Shown here piece by piece: positions 22,584 to 31,486 of a stretch of 64,000 nt of DNA (the stretch's first letter is position 1; the number at the start of each line of letters is the position of its first letter). The stretch comes from Promethearchaeia archaeon (GTDB lineage: Archaea > Asgardarchaeota > Lokiarchaeia > Sigyniarchaeales > SOKP01), in assembly GCA_029856155.1 (NCBI GenBank), contig JAHQWL010000052.1:1-64000 (forward strand), in the 5' to 3' direction. The position numbers were made by a program, and so were the translations under genes. The notes under the pieces are model-generated. The model did not search any database. It saw nothing but the letters and a program-made list of their open reading frames with translations, and had not been told where the DNA came from.

Positions 22584-23867
22584 ATGAATCTAAAATATAG
22601 ATTTATCGGCAGAATTAAAGAATTATTAGAGCAAAAAATAGTTAGATATGCCCTAATTCTCCATAGTTTTTATTTCATACTTTCGATTATTTTATTTTTC
22701 ATGGTATATCAAAAACAAAATGATTTCATTATTTTTTATCGTGTAGGAAAGATATTTCTTAATGATATTGAAAATCTTTACAATCAAACATATTACTTAT
22801 GGGATTTTAGATATTTTCCATTATCTGCTCTATTTTTTATTCCATTTTCCTTCTTCAATTTTCAATTTGCATTTGTAATTTTTAATATTTTTAATTTATT
22901 TCTTAACTTTTTAATATGTATTCTTCTCTATAAAATAATTTTTTTAGTCAAGAATGAAGATCATGAAAGAAATGATAGAAGAGTTATTTTATATATATGT
23001 ATTTATTTAATGGGTTTACCTCATGTGCTGAATTATATTTATGGGCAAATTAATTTATATATTACTTTTTTTATCTTACTGTCTCTTTACATTTTTCTTA
23101 AATTCTCAGATTTTAAGTGGCAATTATTAGGTGGTATTATTCTAGGATTAAGCATCATCATAAAACCCACTGCATTTTTCTTAATACCATTTTTAATCAT
23201 GATGAATTTTGATTTAGAGGTTAAAAAGATAAAATTTGATTTTTTGAGGAGTTTAATTCGGTTAATAGGTGTTTTTACTCCTATTTTGTTGAATATCATA
23301 CTCTTTTTATTATATCCATCTCTATGGGCAGGTTTTTTGGATACGAACTTTACAGGAAGCAATCCAATAGCGCTAAATTTTTCTTTCAGTATCACTAAGC
23401 TTATTACTAATTTCTGCTATTTTTATAATATTCCTTTTAATCAACTTTTCATTTTAATTGGAGTTATGGTGATTTTGGGAGGTTCAGGTTTTATGATATT
23501 CATACTACGAAGATTTGAAGAAAATTCTATTATATATGGTTATTTTTTTGGGATTATCATAATGTTACTCACATATTTTGACTCTTGGGACCATCATCTG
23601 CTCAATTTGACACCGATTTTAATTATCATTATTTTTAATCTACCTCGACACTCTAAAACTACAGAACCTATTAAATTGAGTTTATTTTTCTTTATTTTCT
23701 TTGATCTCGCTTTTGTGGGTATTTGGTATCTTACTTATCCATTATTTCCTTATAATTTTGAATCTACTTTCTTTCTTATTTTATCTTTCTATACGATTGG
23801 TAAATATTGTATAACAAAACAAGGAAAGAAAGAATATGAGGTCAAAAAAATTGAGATAGATTCTTAA
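22584..23867 (+). CDS. Glycosyltransferase 87 / DUF2029-like membrane protein, paralog 1
   Basis: 'FIIFYRVGKIFLNDIENLYNQTYYLWDFRYFPLSALFFIPFSFFNF...' and 'YFDSWDHHLLNLTPILIIIIFNLPRHS', multi-TM GT-C-like. Confidence 0.7.
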   Translation: MNLKYRFIGRIKELLEQKIVRYALILHSFYFILSIILFFMVYQKQNDFIIFYRVGKIFLNDIENLYNQTYYLWDFRYFPLSALFFIPFSFFNFQFAFVIFNIFNLFLNFLICILLYKIIFLVKNEDHERNDRRVILYICIYLMGLPHVLNYIYGQINLYITFFILLSLYIFLKFSDFKWQLLGGIILGLSIIIKPTAFFLIPFLIMMNFDLEVKKIKFDFLRSLIRLIGVFTPILLNIILFLLYPSLWAGFLDTNFTGSNPIALNFSFSITKLITNFCYFYNIPFNQLFILIGVMVILGGSGFMIFILRRFEENSIIYGYFFGIIIMLLTYFDSWDHHLLNLTPILIIIIFNLPRHSKTTEPIKLSLFFFIFFDLAFVGIWYLTYPLFPYNFESTFFLILSFYTIGKYCITKQGKKEYEVKKIEIDS

Positions 23868-23888
23868 TTACACTGTAGTTAGTAGACA

Positions 23889-25157
23889 ATGAATTTAAAC
23901 ATGTATTGTGCAAGAATAAATAATAGGTTTAGAGAATTATGGGAATACAAAATATTTCGAATTGCCATAATATGGCATTTAATTTACTTCTTACTATCGA
24001 TAGTTTTAACACTGAATTTCTTCAGATATCAAACTGATTTTCGAGTTTATTTTATGGCAGGCGAAGTTTTTCTTCATAATATCAACGATCTTTACACATT
24101 TGACTTTACTTGCCCATTTAGATATTTACCAATTTCAGCAGCTTTATTCGTACCTTTTTTTTTGATGGGTTTTGATTTGGGATTTATAATTTTTAATATA
24201 TTTAATCTGATATTGAATATTTTCATCTGCTTAGTTCTTTATAAAATCATTATTCTTATTAGAAAAGAAGATCATGAGAAAGATAATAAAAAAGTTATAT
24301 TCTACATATGTATTTTCTTAATGGGATTGCCTCAACTTTATAATTATATTTTAGGGCAAATTAATTTATATGTTACTTTTTTACTTTTAGTCTCTCTTTA
24401 TATATTTTTAATACATAAATCCCTCAAATGGGATTTATTTTCTAGTTTTATTTTAGGAATAAGCATAATTATAAAACCTTCATTATTTTTATTAATTCCA
24501 TTCTTACTTGTTTTTCAAATCGATTTTAAAAAAAGTAAGATTAATTTTGATTTTTTCAGAAGTTTAATAAGGATAACCGGAGTCTTAGCTCCTACTTTTT
24601 TTAATATTATCTTCTTTTTCTTGTATCCGCCTTTATTGGAAGGTTTTTTAGATACCAATCTTACAGGAGATAATCCTATTGCTCAAAGTTTTTCTTTTAG
24701 TATATCTCAATTAATTATAAATTTCTATTATTTTTACAACATACCATTTAATCAAATTTTTATTTTAGTAGGAGTTATAGGTATCATAGGAGGTTTTGGA
24801 TTTTTAATTTTCATATTCAGGAGATTTGAAGATAATTCTATAATATTTAGCTACGTAATAGGAATTCTTATCATGCTACTCGCATATTTTGATTCTTGGG
24901 ATCACCATTTACTCAACCTTATACCCATTTTGATTATAATTATATTTAATTTGCCAAAACACTCAAAAAATAAGAGTAGCATAATTTACAGTTTATTTTT
25001 CTTTAGTTTTTTTAGTCTTATGTTTTCAGGTATTTGGATGATTACCTTTCAAGTATTTCCATATAATTTTATACCTACACTCTTTTTGTTTATTGTGTTC
25101 TATGGAATAAGTAAATATTGGTTGCTTAAAGAAAAACAAATAGACATGGAGAGTTAA
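23889..25157 (+). CDS. Glycosyltransferase 87 / DUF2029-like membrane protein, paralog 2
   Basis: 'FRVYFMAGEVFLHNINDLYTFDFTCPFRYLPISAALFVPFFLMGFDLGFIIFN', 'YFDSWDHHLLNLIPILIIIIFNLPKHS'; end-to-end similar to neighbour. Confidence 0.7.
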   Translation: MNLNMYCARINNRFRELWEYKIFRIAIIWHLIYFLLSIVLTLNFFRYQTDFRVYFMAGEVFLHNINDLYTFDFTCPFRYLPISAALFVPFFLMGFDLGFIIFNIFNLILNIFICLVLYKIIILIRKEDHEKDNKKVIFYICIFLMGLPQLYNYILGQINLYVTFLLLVSLYIFLIHKSLKWDLFSSFILGISIIIKPSLFLLIPFLLVFQIDFKKSKINFDFFRSLIRITGVLAPTFFNIIFFFLYPPLLEGFLDTNLTGDNPIAQSFSFSISQLIINFYYFYNIPFNQIFILVGVIGIIGGFGFLIFIFRRFEDNSIIFSYVIGILIMLLAYFDSWDHHLLNLIPILIIIIFNLPKHSKNKSSIIYSLFFFSFFSLMFSGIWMITFQVFPYNFIPTLFLFIVFYGISKYWLLKEKQIDMES

Positions 25158-25161
25158 AAAA

Positions 25162-25908
25162 TTGAGGTTTAAATTTATTTTGTTAAATTTCATGTTTCTT
25201 TTCTTATTTTTAAGCAGTTTTGCATCAAATGTGAATGCTTCAGAATATCAAACTGGAGTAAAGAGTGGTCAGGAGTTAGTATGGAAATGTAATGCATGCA
25301 ATAAAATAGAGATGGCTAATATTTTTGGCCCAGAATGGGATGATTCAGGTATTTTTAAAAATTTAAGCAAAGGAACAAGGATGAAATGGAATATAAGTGC
25401 TGTAGAATTTAATGAAACACATATAATAATCAATTTTGATACTTGGGAGTGGACAAGTGAAAATAAATGGGATATAAAAGATAATGATTTTCAAATGACT
25501 TACTTATCCAATCCAAATGACTCTCAAGAAGTAAATTTTTCAAATGATTTACCTTTCGTACCATTTTGGTTTCCTATTCCTGTGGGAGATTATATGGGAG
25601 AATTAAGTCTAAATGAATGGTATGATGTTGACAATAGAGTTTTGCCTACTTTAAATGTAGATATTAAAGAAAATGAAATTTCACCCGGAGTTCCTTCAAA
25701 GGATATTAAAATCATCGTAATCTATAATGATCAAGGAATTCTAAATTCTTATAAATTCTATATTAAGGGAAATATAGTTATTTTAGATATTGCTTTTGAT
25801 TTTTTACCTGTTTACGTAATACCTACATTAATTGGATTATTATGCGTTTTCACTCTCAGTATACTATTATTTGTGTTTAAAAAAAGAAAACCTGTTAACA
25901 GAATATGA
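25162..25908 (+). CDS. Secreted/membrane-anchored hypothetical protein
   Basis: N-terminal signal 'FILLNFMFLFLFLSSFASNVNA', extracellular domain, C-terminal TM 'VIPTLIGLLCVFTLSILLFVFKKRK'. Confidence 0.6.
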   Translation: MRFKFILLNFMFLFLFLSSFASNVNASEYQTGVKSGQELVWKCNACNKIEMANIFGPEWDDSGIFKNLSKGTRMKWNISAVEFNETHIIINFDTWEWTSENKWDIKDNDFQMTYLSNPNDSQEVNFSNDLPFVPFWFPIPVGDYMGELSLNEWYDVDNRVLPTLNVDIKENEISPGVPSKDIKIIVIYNDQGILNSYKFYIKGNIVILDIAFDFLPVYVIPTLIGLLCVFTLSILLFVFKKRKPVNRI

Positions 25909-25915
25909 TTTAAAT

Positions 25916-27205
25916 ATGGAAATCGAGAAATTTTTTAATAATATAAAAGAGCAGTTCAAGAAGCTCTGGAAGTTTAAAATATTTAGATATGCAGTTATTC
26001 TGCACGGCATATATTTCATAGTTTCTCTAATTCTAACTTTAACTGTTTTTAGAAACCAAAATGATTTCTTAGTGTATTACAAAGTTGGAGATGTGTTTAT
26101 CAATGATATTAATAACCTTTACACTGCAGATTATAATTGGCCTTTCAGATATTTTCCAATTTCCGCACTCTTCTTTGTTCCTTATTATCTATTAGGTTTC
26201 AATTTAGGATTTATTGTTTTTAATATCATTAATCTAATTCTCAACATCTTAATTTGTATACTTCTATATAAAATAATTCTTATAGTAAAAGGAGTAAATC
26301 ACGAATCAGAAGATAATCGAGTTATATTTTATCTTTGTTTGTATCTTATGAGCTTACCACAAGTTTTTAATTACATTTTAGGCCAAATTAACTTATACAT
26401 TACCTTATTATTATTAATTTCACTTTATTTTTTTCTTAAACATACTACTTTAAAATGGAATTTTTTTGCTAGCCTTATTTTAGGAATCAGTGTTATTATT
26501 AAACCAATAACTTTATTCTTAATCCCATTTATTATAGTTATTAATTTTAATTTGGGTAAAAAAAAATTTGAAATTCAATATCTCAAATCAATAATTCGTT
26601 TAGTTGGCTTCTTGATACCAGTATCGTTAAATATTTTCATTTTTTTAATAAATCCCGAATTATTAAACGGATTTTTGAATGTAAATCTTACTGGGGAAGA
26701 TACTATTCTTATAAATCATTCATTTAGTATAACCAAACTTGTCCAAAACTTCCTTATAGCTATAGGTTTTTCACAATCACAATTATTAACCTTGCAATTA
26801 CCTATATTTATAACTACACTTATCATTTTCGGGGGATTAGGATTTATTTTCTATTTAATTAGAAGATTTGATAATTATTCTTTAATATATGGATATACAT
26901 TTGGTATTCTAATTATGCTTCTCGGATATTTCGATTCTTGGGACCACCATCTGTTAATTTTAACACCACTTTTGATAATTATTATATTTAATGTACCCCG
27001 AAACTCGAGTTTAACAAAAAAATTTGTGAAACCTACTTTTTTCTTTTTGAGTTTTTTTGATTTAGTATTTATGGGAATATGGTTCCTTTCACAGGAATTC
27101 TTTCCCTTTAATTTTGCAAGTACTATCTTTCTATTACTATTATTTTATGCCATGAGTAAATATTGTCTAATAAAAGATCTACAATTCAATAACAATAAAT
27201 TCTAA
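25916..27205 (+). CDS. Glycosyltransferase 87 / DUF2029-like membrane protein, paralog 3
   Basis: Likely start ATG 25916 (MEIEKFFNNIKEQFKKLWKFKIFRYAVILH) rather than 25832; 'FLVYYKVGDVFINDINNLYTADYNWPFRYFPISALFFVPYYLLGF', 'YFDSWDHHLLILTPLLIIIIFNVPRNS'. Confidence 0.7.
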   Translation: MEIEKFFNNIKEQFKKLWKFKIFRYAVILHGIYFIVSLILTLTVFRNQNDFLVYYKVGDVFINDINNLYTADYNWPFRYFPISALFFVPYYLLGFNLGFIVFNIINLILNILICILLYKIILIVKGVNHESEDNRVIFYLCLYLMSLPQVFNYILGQINLYITLLLLISLYFFLKHTTLKWNFFASLILGISVIIKPITLFLIPFIIVINFNLGKKKFEIQYLKSIIRLVGFLIPVSLNIFIFLINPELLNGFLNVNLTGEDTILINHSFSITKLVQNFLIAIGFSQSQLLTLQLPIFITTLIIFGGLGFIFYLIRRFDNYSLIYGYTFGILIMLLGYFDSWDHHLLILTPLLIIIIFNVPRNSSLTKKFVKPTFFFLSFFDLVFMGIWFLSQEFFPFNFASTIFLLLLFYAMSKYCLIKDLQFNNNKF

Positions 27206-28168: not shown

Positions 28169-30541
28169 ATGAAATGTTTATTCTGTGAAAACCAAAAAAT
28201 CGATTTTACATGTGAAAAATGCAAATCAAGTTTCTGTATTAATCATATAGCTACAACTGAAACACATGAGTGTAAAAAACATAATTTATTTTACTCAAAA
28301 GTTAAAGCAGTTGAAAGAAATTTTAAATGTACAGTTGTAGAAAATAGTGAGTGTCCCATATGTAAACACCTGTTAAGATTAGAAAGATTGTCATCTGGAC
28401 AGTATTATTTAGAGTGTACTAATCCCAATTGCCCTGAGTCATGGAATTCATACTTAAAAACACCCGGATTATTTTTTCCTTCAAAAGAAAAGCTTGCTCG
28501 CGAAGCGATAAGATATAACCTTATCAAAGGAAATAGATTAACATTATGTAGTAAAAGATTGCGATCTATAATAGGAAAGGAAGTTTGTCCTAATTGTTTT
28601 TTAAACTTATTAAAACGAGCTCCACTTAGTAATTTTTCCACAATAATGAATTCTTTCAATATTTCTGCTGAGCAAATGATCAAATTTATTAATAAATATA
28701 TGGATGAAGAACGAATTTATGGCATTATTGATCAAAAAAATCAGATGTTTTACTATATATCTTCAGAAATGCGTGAGAAAATACTTGCGAAATTCCATGA
28801 TGAAGGTATAATTAACGTGGCTGATTTAGGAATAATGCTTGATATGAGTTCTGAAATTGCCACAAAGGTGATTTACAAGTTAATTAACCAATTTCAGATA
28901 AAAGGTTCATTCACATTAAATAAAGAGATCTATTACACTCAAAAATACATAATGGACAATCTTATCAAAGAAATTAATAAGAATGGTAGAGTATCCTTAA
29001 AAGACCTTGCTAATAATTTTAATATTCCAAAAGAACTTATTAAATCATTTTGTGTCAATTTAATGAGAGCAAAAGCAGTAAATGGATTTTTCGCAGATCG
29101 AGGATATGAAATTATTACTGCAAATCAAATTTATACTGATATTAAAGATTATTCTAAAGAAACAGGGTTATTTGAACTTTCTAAACTTGCTTCAAAATTA
29201 AAAATAGCTGTAGAGTTAGCAAGAAAAAGTCTTCACGAGTTAATTAAAACTGGTAAAATCAAGGGGATATTTACTCAAAGAAGAGAATTCATGACTAACA
29301 AGCATTTAGAAAAAAAAATAAAGGAAATCGCTAGAGCTTATAGAACTATGCCTTTAAGAGAGCTTTCAAATAGATTAGGAGTTACAGAAGCAAGTATAGA
29401 AGAGAATTTAGCACAGATTATTTCACGCGGTGACATTGATGGTTATATTGACATGGCAAAAAGAACATTTGTAGCTTATTCTGTCCCAATTGAATCAAAA
29501 TCTCAAGATATACCAAAAACACCTAAAGTACCTACTGATGGAGGAAATGTTGAAGTAGTTCGTGAATATGATTTTATCGGAGGGCAATTACATATGAAAG
29601 TAGTTGTACGGAATAAAAGTACTATGGCGATCAATTCAGTAAAAGTCATTTTAGATGTTCCTTCTAGCTATAAAACTAAAGATCCTCTCATTAATATCCC
29701 ATTTATTGAAGCAAAGAATTCTAGAGGTGTTGATTTCTATTTAGAACCAAAAGAATGTGGAATCTCGAATATTGGTGGTGATGTTATCTACAAAACAGCC
29801 TCAGGGGATAAAAATACTGTACACATTCGAAAAAAAGAGGTCCAAATAAAATGTCCATTAGTTGTGTCGTGTTTAGCAACGATCGAGGATATTCAAATAG
29901 CCATCGCAGATCTTCCGAATGACGCTCGAGCTTTTTTAATTGCTGATATAGATCCACGTTTAGCTTTTCGAGCAGGTGTCAGGACAATAAAACGTTTTGA
30001 AGTAAGTACTGTAACCTCTCATGAAGGTAATGATACTAAAGGAAAATATGAGGCAGAGAGTTGGCATTGTTCCGAAGCGAAGGTAGGGGGGGGTAGAATT
30101 ATTACAAGAGTCTACGTATCTGAGGCTAATCAGTCATTAGAGGTTAGAGTTTGGTGTAACCATCCAGGACAGCTAACAGGCTTTCTTGCAAAGATAATTG
30201 AGTTATTGTTTGAAGAAATCAATATAATAAGGAAGATCAAATCGGATGAAAGAGAAAAAACTATTGATGTAATGGCGATAACTCAAAATTTAGCAGAAAT
30301 CTCTGATTATTGTATGTTAAGATGGAAAGCTCAAAACATTAGAACTAAGCTCCATGATACTTTTGTCCGCGTAAGAAAGATTTTAGGAGAAAATGAAGCT
30401 ATTTTAGGGAGAATGGAATACTGGCTTACGGAATTGAACAAATTTGGTAAAGACGATAAAATAACTGATGAATTAGCAGATAAGTTAGTAAATGATATCG
30501 AAAATTTTAGGAATGTTATCGCAAGATCGATTAAATTGTAA
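28169..30541 (+). CDS. AN1-type zinc finger + tandem winged-helix (UFL1-like) + beta-sandwich multidomain protein
   Basis: N-term 'CLFCENQKIDFTCEKCKSSFCINHIATTETHEC' (AN1 spacing); further CxxC pairs; tandem wHTH repeats (IINVADLGIMLDM..., GRVSLKDLANNFNIPKELI..., LFELSKLASKLKIAVELARKSLHELIKTGKIKGIF); then 'REYDFIGGQLHMKVVVRNKSTMAINSVKVILDVP' Ig/appendage-like. Confidence 0.65.
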   Translation: MKCLFCENQKIDFTCEKCKSSFCINHIATTETHECKKHNLFYSKVKAVERNFKCTVVENSECPICKHLLRLERLSSGQYYLECTNPNCPESWNSYLKTPGLFFPSKEKLAREAIRYNLIKGNRLTLCSKRLRSIIGKEVCPNCFLNLLKRAPLSNFSTIMNSFNISAEQMIKFINKYMDEERIYGIIDQKNQMFYYISSEMREKILAKFHDEGIINVADLGIMLDMSSEIATKVIYKLINQFQIKGSFTLNKEIYYTQKYIMDNLIKEINKNGRVSLKDLANNFNIPKELIKSFCVNLMRAKAVNGFFADRGYEIITANQIYTDIKDYSKETGLFELSKLASKLKIAVELARKSLHELIKTGKIKGIFTQRREFMTNKHLEKKIKEIARAYRTMPLRELSNRLGVTEASIEENLAQIISRGDIDGYIDMAKRTFVAYSVPIESKSQDIPKTPKVPTDGGNVEVVREYDFIGGQLHMKVVVRNKSTMAINSVKVILDVPSSYKTKDPLINIPFIEAKNSRGVDFYLEPKECGISNIGGDVIYKTASGDKNTVHIRKKEVQIKCPLVVSCLATIEDIQIAIADLPNDARAFLIADIDPRLAFRAGVRTIKRFEVSTVTSHEGNDTKGKYEAESWHCSEAKVGGGRIITRVYVSEANQSLEVRVWCNHPGQLTGFLAKIIELLFEEINIIRKIKSDEREKTIDVMAITQNLAEISDYCMLRWKAQNIRTKLHDTFVRVRKILGENEAILGRMEYWLTELNKFGKDDKITDELADKLVNDIENFRNVIARSIKL

Positions 30542-30605: not shown

Positions 30606-31046
30606 TTGAAGAGAAGAGAAAAACTCATGTCCCCAATAATGTCTGTGTCGCTCAATGAGAATCTTAAAAAATTTATTAATAAACTTGTTAATAAAAATCA
30701 ATATGAAAATAAATCTAAATTAATTAGAGATGCTTTATTACGTTTAATGTCATCAGAAGAGATCTCCGCCAGTCTTGATGGATCAAGTGAGCTAATACCG
30801 TTAACAAAAAACATAATTGGAAATATGATTATTGTTGCTCCTAATGATTATTATGTTCAGAAGAAATTGAATAGAATTGAAAGTGAATATAAAGAGCAAA
30901 TTGTAAGTAAAAACCAAAATTTTATCAATCCACATTTTATAACTTTCATGGTGTTTGATGGAAGTCTTCATGATTTCCAAAAACTTGTTGTTGAAATAAA
31001 CAGTATTGAAGAAATAAAGAATTTCAGGTATTTAATTATAAATTAA
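30606..31046 (+). CDS. NikR-like CopG/RHH transcriptional regulator
   Basis: N-terminal ribbon-helix-helix 'MSVSLNENLKKFINKLVNKNQYENKSKLIRDALLRLM' and C-terminal 'NPHFITFMVFDGSLHDFQKLVVEINSIEEIKNFRYLII' resembling the NikR ACT-like domain. Confidence 0.7.
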   Translation: MKRREKLMSPIMSVSLNENLKKFINKLVNKNQYENKSKLIRDALLRLMSSEEISASLDGSSELIPLTKNIIGNMIIVAPNDYYVQKKLNRIESEYKEQIVSKNQNFINPHFITFMVFDGSLHDFQKLVVEINSIEEIKNFRYLIIN

Positions 31047-31126
31047 GTACTAGTTATCTTTACGAGATAACAAAATTTATTCTATGAAAACATTGTATTA
31101 GATTATTCGACTTTAGTGAAAGTATT

Positions 31127-31486
31127 ATGGGAAAAAATAAATATGGAAAAGGATTCCAGAAGGGAACACAATCAAAGGGAGGCGGTTCAAAACAAGGAGG
31201 GGATCCTGTTCATGGGGGAAAGATTAAAGCAAGCCACATTTTAGTGGAGAAGTTTAGTAAAGCGCAAGAACTTTATGAAGATTTAAAAGCAGGAGAAATA
31301 TTTGAACAATTAGCAAGGAAATATTCCACATGTCCAAGTAAGAAAAAGGGCGGCAATTTAGGTGAATTCGCTAAAGGTGATATGGTAGCTGAATTTTGGA
31401 ATGCGAGTGCTCAACTAAAAATTGGTGAAATTTCGCAACCTGTAAAATCTAAGTTTGGATATCATATTATTAAACGTACAGGATAA
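31127..31486 (+). CDS. Parvulin-type (PpiC) peptidyl-prolyl isomerase with basic Gly/Lys N-terminal extension
   Basis: 'KIKASHILVEKFSKAQELYEDLKAGEIFEQLARKYSTCPSKKKGGNLGEFAKGDMVAEFWNASAQLKIGEISQPVKSKFGYHIIKRTG'. Confidence 0.93.
   Translation: MGKNKYGKGFQKGTQSKGGGSKQGGDPVHGGKIKASHILVEKFSKAQELYEDLKAGEIFEQLARKYSTCPSKKKGGNLGEFAKGDMVAEFWNASAQLKIGEISQPVKSKFGYHIIKRTG

Follow-up and report, generated by a model that had tools for sequence, protein, structure and literature searches.

The human E3 ligase core for the ubiquitin-like modifier UFM1, the UFM1 ribosome E3 ligase (UREL; PDB: 8b9x, 8c0d, 8qfc, 8ohd), is odd in that one of its winged helices is composite, UFBP1 (DDRGK1) supplying half of the domain from its C-terminus and UFL1 the other half from its N-terminus (PMC9627666). 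The WH1'-composite-WH1 triple is the minimal catalytic module and suffices to discharge UFC1~UFM1 in the human system (PMC9627666), the E2 UFC1 being recruited by the α1 helix of UFL1 and contacted by Arg265 in the DDRGK motif of UFBP1, and every winged helix of the complex except WH1' touches the 60S ribosomal subunit (PMC10937380). UFL1 and DDRGK1 homologues have been reported in Asgard archaea, where the text of the report proposes that they predate UFM1 (PMC10183829), and a separate set of Asgard multidomain proteins joins Vps28-C, adaptin appendage, longin and helix-turn-helix (HTH)/PCI domains, with an association with ESCRT-II proposed in the text of the paper (PMC10936438). Here we describe a gene that bears on both sets, located at positions 28169-30541 (+ strand) of a 64,000-nucleotide window (positions 1 to 64,000 of contig JAHQWL010000052.1, assembly GCA_029856155.1), which comes from a Lokiarchaeal metagenome-assembled genome (MAG), and encoding a protein of 790 residues (P0001).

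The gene is one intact open reading frame (ORF) of 790 codons starting with ATG, a genuine and conserved gene with 52 near-full-length orthologues, all from Lokiarchaeia, that align at 38-95% identity to P0001 and a mean column identity of 72%, and all 62 loci of the family in named genomes (62/62) are labelled Lokiarchaeota/ia, Prometheoarchaeum, Harpocratesius or Sigynarchaeum. In a draw of 148 genomes, matches to P0001, nearly all of them full-length, were found in 27 of the 31 genomes of its own taxonomic family and in 4 of the 5 of the neighbouring one, while among 228 Asgard genomes a DDRGK match occurs in 54 of the 65 genomes of P0001's family, nearly always in an ORF of the 790-residue type. 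The best DDRGK matches among the 228 Asgard genomes belong to this one protein family, as do the best UFL1 matches among the 148, and in the window's genome (a draft, 97% complete with 5.7% contamination; its relatives are MAGs as well) the UFL1 and DDRGK models match this gene only. What this analysis adds is that the best Asgard matches to DDRGK and to UFL1 are one and the same protein, which ends in an adaptor-type half. The homologues reported previously are very probably members of this family; the text of that report treats two proteins and mentions neither a fusion nor a C-terminal adaptor half (PMC10183829).

An AlphaFold2 (AF2) model built on the 52-sequence alignment (mean predicted local distance difference test, pLDDT, 82.5; predicted template modelling score, pTM, 0.42) places in order a zinc-binding head, five winged helices, a linker, a β-sandwich, an α/β platform and a helical bundle, and while the predicted domain boundaries are reliable, the relative placement of the domains, given the low pTM, is not. 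The winged helices are modelled with a pLDDT of about 80-93, are about 59 residues long each, and form a stretch free of insertions and deletions across all 52 sequences. Winged helix A (residues 141-197; 28589-28759, on the + strand as are all features below) is the equivalent of DDRGK1/UFBP1 WH1', as indicated by AF2, a repeat-A profile and the best stretch of the DDRGK model (residues 142-219). Winged helix B (199-257; 28763-28939), ungapped in the 52 sequences, aligns colinearly and without an inserted helix to an engineered DDRGK1-UFL1 chimera and corresponds, as one unbroken unit, to the human composite pWH'-pWH domain. Winged helices C (258-317; 28940-29119), D (318-376; 29120-29296) and E (377-438; 29297-29482) take the positions of UFL1 WH1, WH2 and WH3, the first from the A-C register and the alignment of residues 232-435 to profile positions 27-233 of the UFL1 model, the second from AF2 and the same alignment, and the third, which is also the best PCI match (Pfam: PF01399, best stretch 375-436), from AF2. 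A flexible linker (439-458; 29483-29542), with a pLDDT below 50 and a mean identity of 26%, closes this half of the protein.

That the central region holds UFL1-like tandem winged helices had been proposed from the sequence alone (hereafter, the original prediction), and Pfam, a PDB-wide profile search and Foldseek all place it with DDRGK1/UFL1. P0001 scores 61.6 bits with E3_UFM1_ligase (Pfam: PF09743, cut-off 23.2) and 50.4 bits with DDRGK (Pfam: PF09756, cut-off 27.8), and both models match 52/52 members. When a profile of the family's winged helices is compared with all PDB sequences, the top seven matches are all DDRGK1 or UFL1, with the chimera 8b9x at an E-value of 2.3e-14, followed by CSN2 (0.012), eS25 (0.016) and HTH regulators (0.08 or worse). 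Foldseek likewise ranks 8b9x first in the PDB (E-value 4e-11, target-normalised TM-score 0.72 over 246 columns), with the appendage domains of AP2 and COPI next (2e-9), the best other winged-helix array being that of SelB (7e-5). A generic transcription factor or a PCI subunit as closest relative was rejected on these values; only in Pfam does the PCI model reach a higher total (80.8 bits over several stretches of P0001), and PCI chains are far weaker in the PDB and fold searches. A viral fold library gave nothing informative.

The order of the repeats carries the argument further. Repeats A-C align to the WH1'-composite-WH1 triple of the chimera with 53.5 bits, no shifted register exceeding 31.9, and the repeat-A profile gives 25.9 bits to DDRGK1 WH1' and at most 5.6 bits to the other human repeats tested; in the specificity controls for WH1', other repeats reach at most 13.1 bits and shuffled sequences at most 14.5. 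Repeats B-E are not discriminating singly, and the register holds only for the colinear set. We rejected PF09743 alone as proof of UFL1 likeness because the model also scores other Asgard tandem winged-helix proteins, often in other registers, and the case therefore rests on the specificity for DDRGK, the register and the PDB-wide ranking. Examples from other Asgard families are L133:1216-2379, L134:397-2283 and L136:703-2622, tandem winged-helix arrays that score 30-47 bits with PF09743 and start, as DDRGK1 does, with a hydrophobic segment that by eye resembles a membrane anchor. In L129:2403-4262, which both the UFL1 and the DDRGK model also match, an ABC-type ATPase is joined to four winged helices; the case calls for caution with these models, and the protein is unusual in its own right.

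Among solved structures, the human UFL1-UFBP1 core is the best match to P0001 in both sequence profile and fold, sharing the order and register of WH1', composite domain, WH1 and WH2, plus one more unit, and the winged-helix core of P0001 is a natural single-chain version of it, with the DDRGK1-like unit first and the UFL1 order after it. In contrast to the human complex, P0001 is one chain rather than two and has five winged helices rather than seven; it is devoid of the UFL1 α1 helix, the UFL1 C-terminal domain and the membrane anchor or long helix of UFBP1, carries zinc modules, an appendage and a Vps28-C-like bundle instead, and resides in a genome in which no UFM1 pathway was detected. 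Its continuous composite domain would directly explain the divided human one if a gene was split in eukaryotes rather than joined in Lokiarchaeia, and P0001 is a candidate stand-in, open to experiment, for the scaffold's ancestor.

Upstream of the winged helices lies the zinc-binding head. The original prediction assigned the first element, residues 1-40 (28169-28288), to the AN1 zinc fingers on account of its ligand spacing, which is borne out in part: C3, C6, C15, C18, C23, H26 and C35 are kept across the 52 sequences, but the histidine of the expected H-x-C, H33 at the position of the seventh AN1 ligand, is present in only 12 of the 52 and replaced by W/Y in 40, and the conserved last ligand is H38, following C35. 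The family thus departs from the pattern C-x2-C...C-x2-C-x4-C-x2-H-x5-H-x-C, with C35-x2-H38 in its place, and Pfam AN1 gives no match in P0001. A 75-residue protein of another Asgard family, with a 44% match to residues 1-51 of P0001, retains H-x5-H-x-C. Judged from these ligands, the finger appears to be AN1-derived, with the seventh ligand lost in most members. It is followed by a zinc ribbon (residues 60-95; 28346-28453), whose C62, C65 and C83 are found in 52/52 sequences and C88 in 49/52 and which is recognised as Zn_ribbon_Top1 in three members, and by a third cysteine cluster (C127, C140 and C143 within residues 125-145; 28541-28603), all three invariant (52/52). The original prediction did not include the ribbon, nor did it recognise the first winged helix as DDRGK1-like or notice the helical bundle at the C-terminus.

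The C-terminal half is of a different kind. The domain first described as Ig/appendage-like is a full two-lobe appendage, with a β-sandwich (residues 461-567; 29549-29869) followed by a TBP/helix-grip-like platform (572-663; 29882-30157), as expected for adaptin-type appendages. When this half is searched alone with Foldseek, it matches the appendages of AP2 β2, COPI and BBS9 with E-values of ~1e-7 to 2e-9, the latter for AP2 β2, over ~240 columns for the bilobal AP2 and COPI appendages, and the Pfam model GAE_BBS1 is found in three members. P0001 shares the two-lobe fold and the order of lobes with the GAE-platform appendages of AP2 β2/α, COPI and BBS9, while differing from them in its sequence (~10-14% identity), in an apparently different lobe orientation and in having no adaptin trunk or hinge. 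No paralogues of the appendage were found in the window's genome. The last domain, a helical bundle (666-787; 30164-30529), is likened to Vps28-C by Pfam and by the PDB profile search, with VPS28 (Pfam: PF03997) matched in 46/52 members at a best E-value of 4.7e-9, so that its putative homology to Vps28-C is moderately supported. Zinc modules, a DDRGK1-UFL1-like array, an appendage and a bundle are thus found in a single chain, an architecture as distinctive as had been anticipated.

The reading that we consider the most probable, with a probability of about 0.45, is that P0001 belongs to the soluble multidomain adaptors of the Asgard ubiquitin/ESCRT kind and has as its core the DDRGK1(UFBP1)-UFL1 winged-helix array in one chain. 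An adaptor or scaffold is favoured because the combination of appendage, Vps28-C and HTH/PCI domains is that of the published class and because the window's genome encodes a Vps22-like ESCRT-II protein (53.5 bits, cut-off 26.8). The architecture of P0001, with Vps28-C or SB, appendage and HTH/PCI domains, corresponds to this class subject to its sub-threshold Vps28-C match, and like the published proteins it has the appendage (sandwich and platform) before the Vps28-C-like bundle and PCI/HTH-type winged helices upstream. It differs from them in its zinc modules and in having no longin-like domain; UFM1 goes unmentioned in the text of the paper, and its Fig. 6B may draw the exact architecture of P0001 (PMC10936438). 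In such an adaptor, a client, which may be a cargo, an E2~modifier or a ribosomal or other ribonucleoprotein particle, would be held by the rod of five winged helices together with the zinc modules, the appendage could gather partners bearing short linear motifs, and the Vps28-C-like bundle might dock the assembly onto ESCRT-II. The architecture also links a UFMylation-type scaffold to ESCRT and adaptin-type modules within a single polypeptide.

Several observations weigh against an adaptor of this kind. P0001 itself scores 22.3 bits with PF03997, just under the cut-off of 24.5; Vps28-C chains top the list of the PDB profile search, yet with an E-value of 0.11, which is suggestive only; and Vps28 is not within the top 50 Foldseek matches of the C-terminal half. 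The TM-scores of the appendage matches are only ~0.4, probably due to a different, rotated orientation of the lobes. In addition, no ESCRT or ubiquitin gene adjoins the P0001 gene, whose conserved neighbours are a ribbon-helix-helix (RHH)/NikR-like regulator, a peptidyl-prolyl isomerase (PPIase), a DsbD-like protein, GT87 proteins and FttA.

Relatives of the same class show that these modules change partners, with the zinc finger, ribbon and five winged helices in some and the appendage and bundle in others followed by a longin-like sequence, which is recognised by inspection and receives no Pfam call. L126:1275-3443 and L125:1227-3272 share with P0001 the zinc ribbon and the array of five winged helices, in L126 also the N-terminal finger, but end in a sequence that is longin-like by eye and two further winged helices in place of the appendage half, so that the N-terminal module has evidently been swapped between tails. 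L127, L128 and L130, all from one genome, combine TPR or HTH units with an appendage, a helical bundle and a C-terminal sequence that again looks longin-like.

The main rival of the adaptor is an E3 acting on a ubiquitin-type E2, that is, a scaffold for one of the genome's own ubiquitin-type cascades, whose core would bind and activate E2~Ub(l), whose appendage and bundle would choose the substrates, and whose split and re-specialised descendant would be the eukaryotic UFM1 E3. We regard this as possible, though clearly less probable than the adaptor. The in-register match of repeats A-C to the triple that is sufficient for discharge speaks for it, as does a basic residue aligned with the UFC1-contacting Arg265 of UFBP1: the DDRGK motif reads D-Q-K-N-Q in P0001, with D in 51/52 sequences and K/R at the Arg265 position in 44/52 (K 40, R 4), and so seems to be only partly kept, reduced to D-x-K/R. 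The genome also offers three E1/E2 pairs (L059 at C35, L060 at C44 and L061 at C54), two of them in clusters with JAMM proteases and ubiquitin-like (Ubl) proteins. However, the UFC1-recruiting α1 helix is absent, the pWH' part running uninterrupted into the pWH part in all 52 sequences; the three E2s are HPN-type and match UQ_con rather than the UFC1 model, and the one compared with the PDB matches ubiquitin-type E2s; the P0001 gene adjoins no E1 or E2 gene; and a candidate zinc E3 of 395 residues, recognised by inspection, already belongs to the C44 cluster. In that cluster are Ubl proteins with TAG at their end and a membrane zinc protein, and in the C54 cluster an 85-residue Ubl that ends in GGS, along with a JAMM protease and tandem GTPase-like proteins. 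Somewhat less probable again, and on balance unlikely, is the full line of descent of P0001 from an ancestral single-chain UFL1-UFBP1 scaffold E3, in which an archaeal scaffold-type ligase on a ubiquitin-type E2, already tied to ESCRT trafficking, would have been divided by eukaryotes inside its second winged helix and adapted to UFM1 and the ribosome.

A ribosome-associated factor is doubtful; on this reading the UFL1-UFBP1 rod would at first have served, independently of UFM1, to clasp the large subunit, with the UFM1 chemistry a later addition. The reading would suit the 60S contacts of the human winged helices other than WH1' (PMC10937380), the greater age proposed for UFL1 and DDRGK1 in the text of PMC10183829, the additional resemblance of winged helix D to ribosomal S25 and the presence of FttA and EF-2 near the gene, but P0001 has no counterpart of either ribosome-gripping end of the human complex, the UFL1 C-terminal domain with its peptidyl transferase centre (PTC) loop or the UFBP1 N-terminal helix, and its C-terminal half, the appendage and bundle, points to trafficking. 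More improbable still is a DNA-binding regulator with tandem winged helices and zinc fingers, for which weak matches to many HTH families and the RHH/NikR-like regulator encoded by the next gene might be invoked; its HTH-family and transcription-factor matches in the PDB are orders of magnitude below those to DDRGK1/UFL1. We know of no precedent for the appendage and bundle in transcription factors.

The role originally assigned to P0001, a UFMylation-type E3 scaffold, mostly does not hold. A UFM1/UFC1/UBA5 set was looked for and not found in the window's genome, where neither UFM1 nor UFC1 was detected with Pfam, nor UFC1 with an Asgard-specific profile, and the compact E1 at C54 is a better match to yeast Uba1 than to UBA5; the ubiquitin-like machinery whose absence would have told against the original prediction is present as E1/E2 pairs but not as UFM1 or UFC1. 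CDK5RAP3 (Pfam: PF05600) is also absent from this genome, with only weak partial matches elsewhere. As no UFM1 system was detected, the scaffold probably had another job; this absence fits the suggestion in the text of PMC10183829 that UFL1 and DDRGK1 predate UFM1, and P0001 can show the work of such a scaffold before, or without, UFM1.

A UFM1-like operon does occur in other Asgard genomes. By following the UFC1 search into relatives we examined nine regions (L176-L184), none from the window's genome, for instance L176:3237-9989, L177:4554-9284, L178:3809-8315, L179:4252-8402 and L180:3323-9909. In 9/9 of them a UFC1-type E2 is accompanied by a JAMM protease and an E1 of UBA5 type, in 8/9 a UFM1-like modifier is recognised as well, in some fused to the E2, and a winged-helix protein (EAP30-like in some) and an SPFH protein are present in 6/9. 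The profile of the operon E2 retrieves only UFC1 chains from the PDB (26/26, best E-value 3e-7), and one operon E1 matches UBA5 at 2e-43 versus MoeB at 1e-25. In seven aligned copies the modifier ends in a VG motif or is joined to the E2 after VG; its sole Pfam suggestion is Ufm1 (14.4 bits, E-value 0.037, colinear to the end), and in the PDB profile search UFM1 appears at an E-value of 0.39 among equally weak unrelated matches, so that its identity rests on the context and the C-terminus. In the open-access literature searched here, only PMC10183829 was found to deal with both UFC1 and Asgard archaea, and its text calls UFM1 and UFC1 exclusively eukaryotic, a statement that the UBA5/UFC1/UFM1-like operon, if confirmed, would revise for both.

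The distribution of the operon E2 is patchy (19/228 Asgard genomes) and, contrary to the co-occurrence expected for a UFMylation ligase, the P0001 family does not track it: a UFC1-like E2 is found in 9/54 DDRGK-positive and 1/11 DDRGK-negative genomes of the taxonomic family, with no sign of coupling. That P0001 is a true UFM1 E3 served by an unrecognised UFM1-like system in the same cell is therefore very improbable and already largely refuted for this genome, since the operon, although related Lokiarchaeia have it, among them two members of the window's genus, is undetected in a 97%-complete genome with a profile that gives E-values below 1e-50 in most carriers, and in most copies brings its own winged-helix protein.

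The immediate surroundings of the P0001 gene are themselves conserved. Downstream, 64 bp past the stop codon and on the same strand, lies the gene for the RHH/NikR-like regulator (30606-31046, +; assigned by Pfam), which is found in 43 of the 50 loci with room for it, at a median gap of 80 bp, and is followed within 30606-31486 by a parvulin-type PPIase (32/47 loci), also on the strand of the P0001 gene. Upstream, at 22584-27205, are three tandem genes for related membrane proteins that are conserved in ~40 loci, and the one that was scanned is a GT87 glycosyltransferase.

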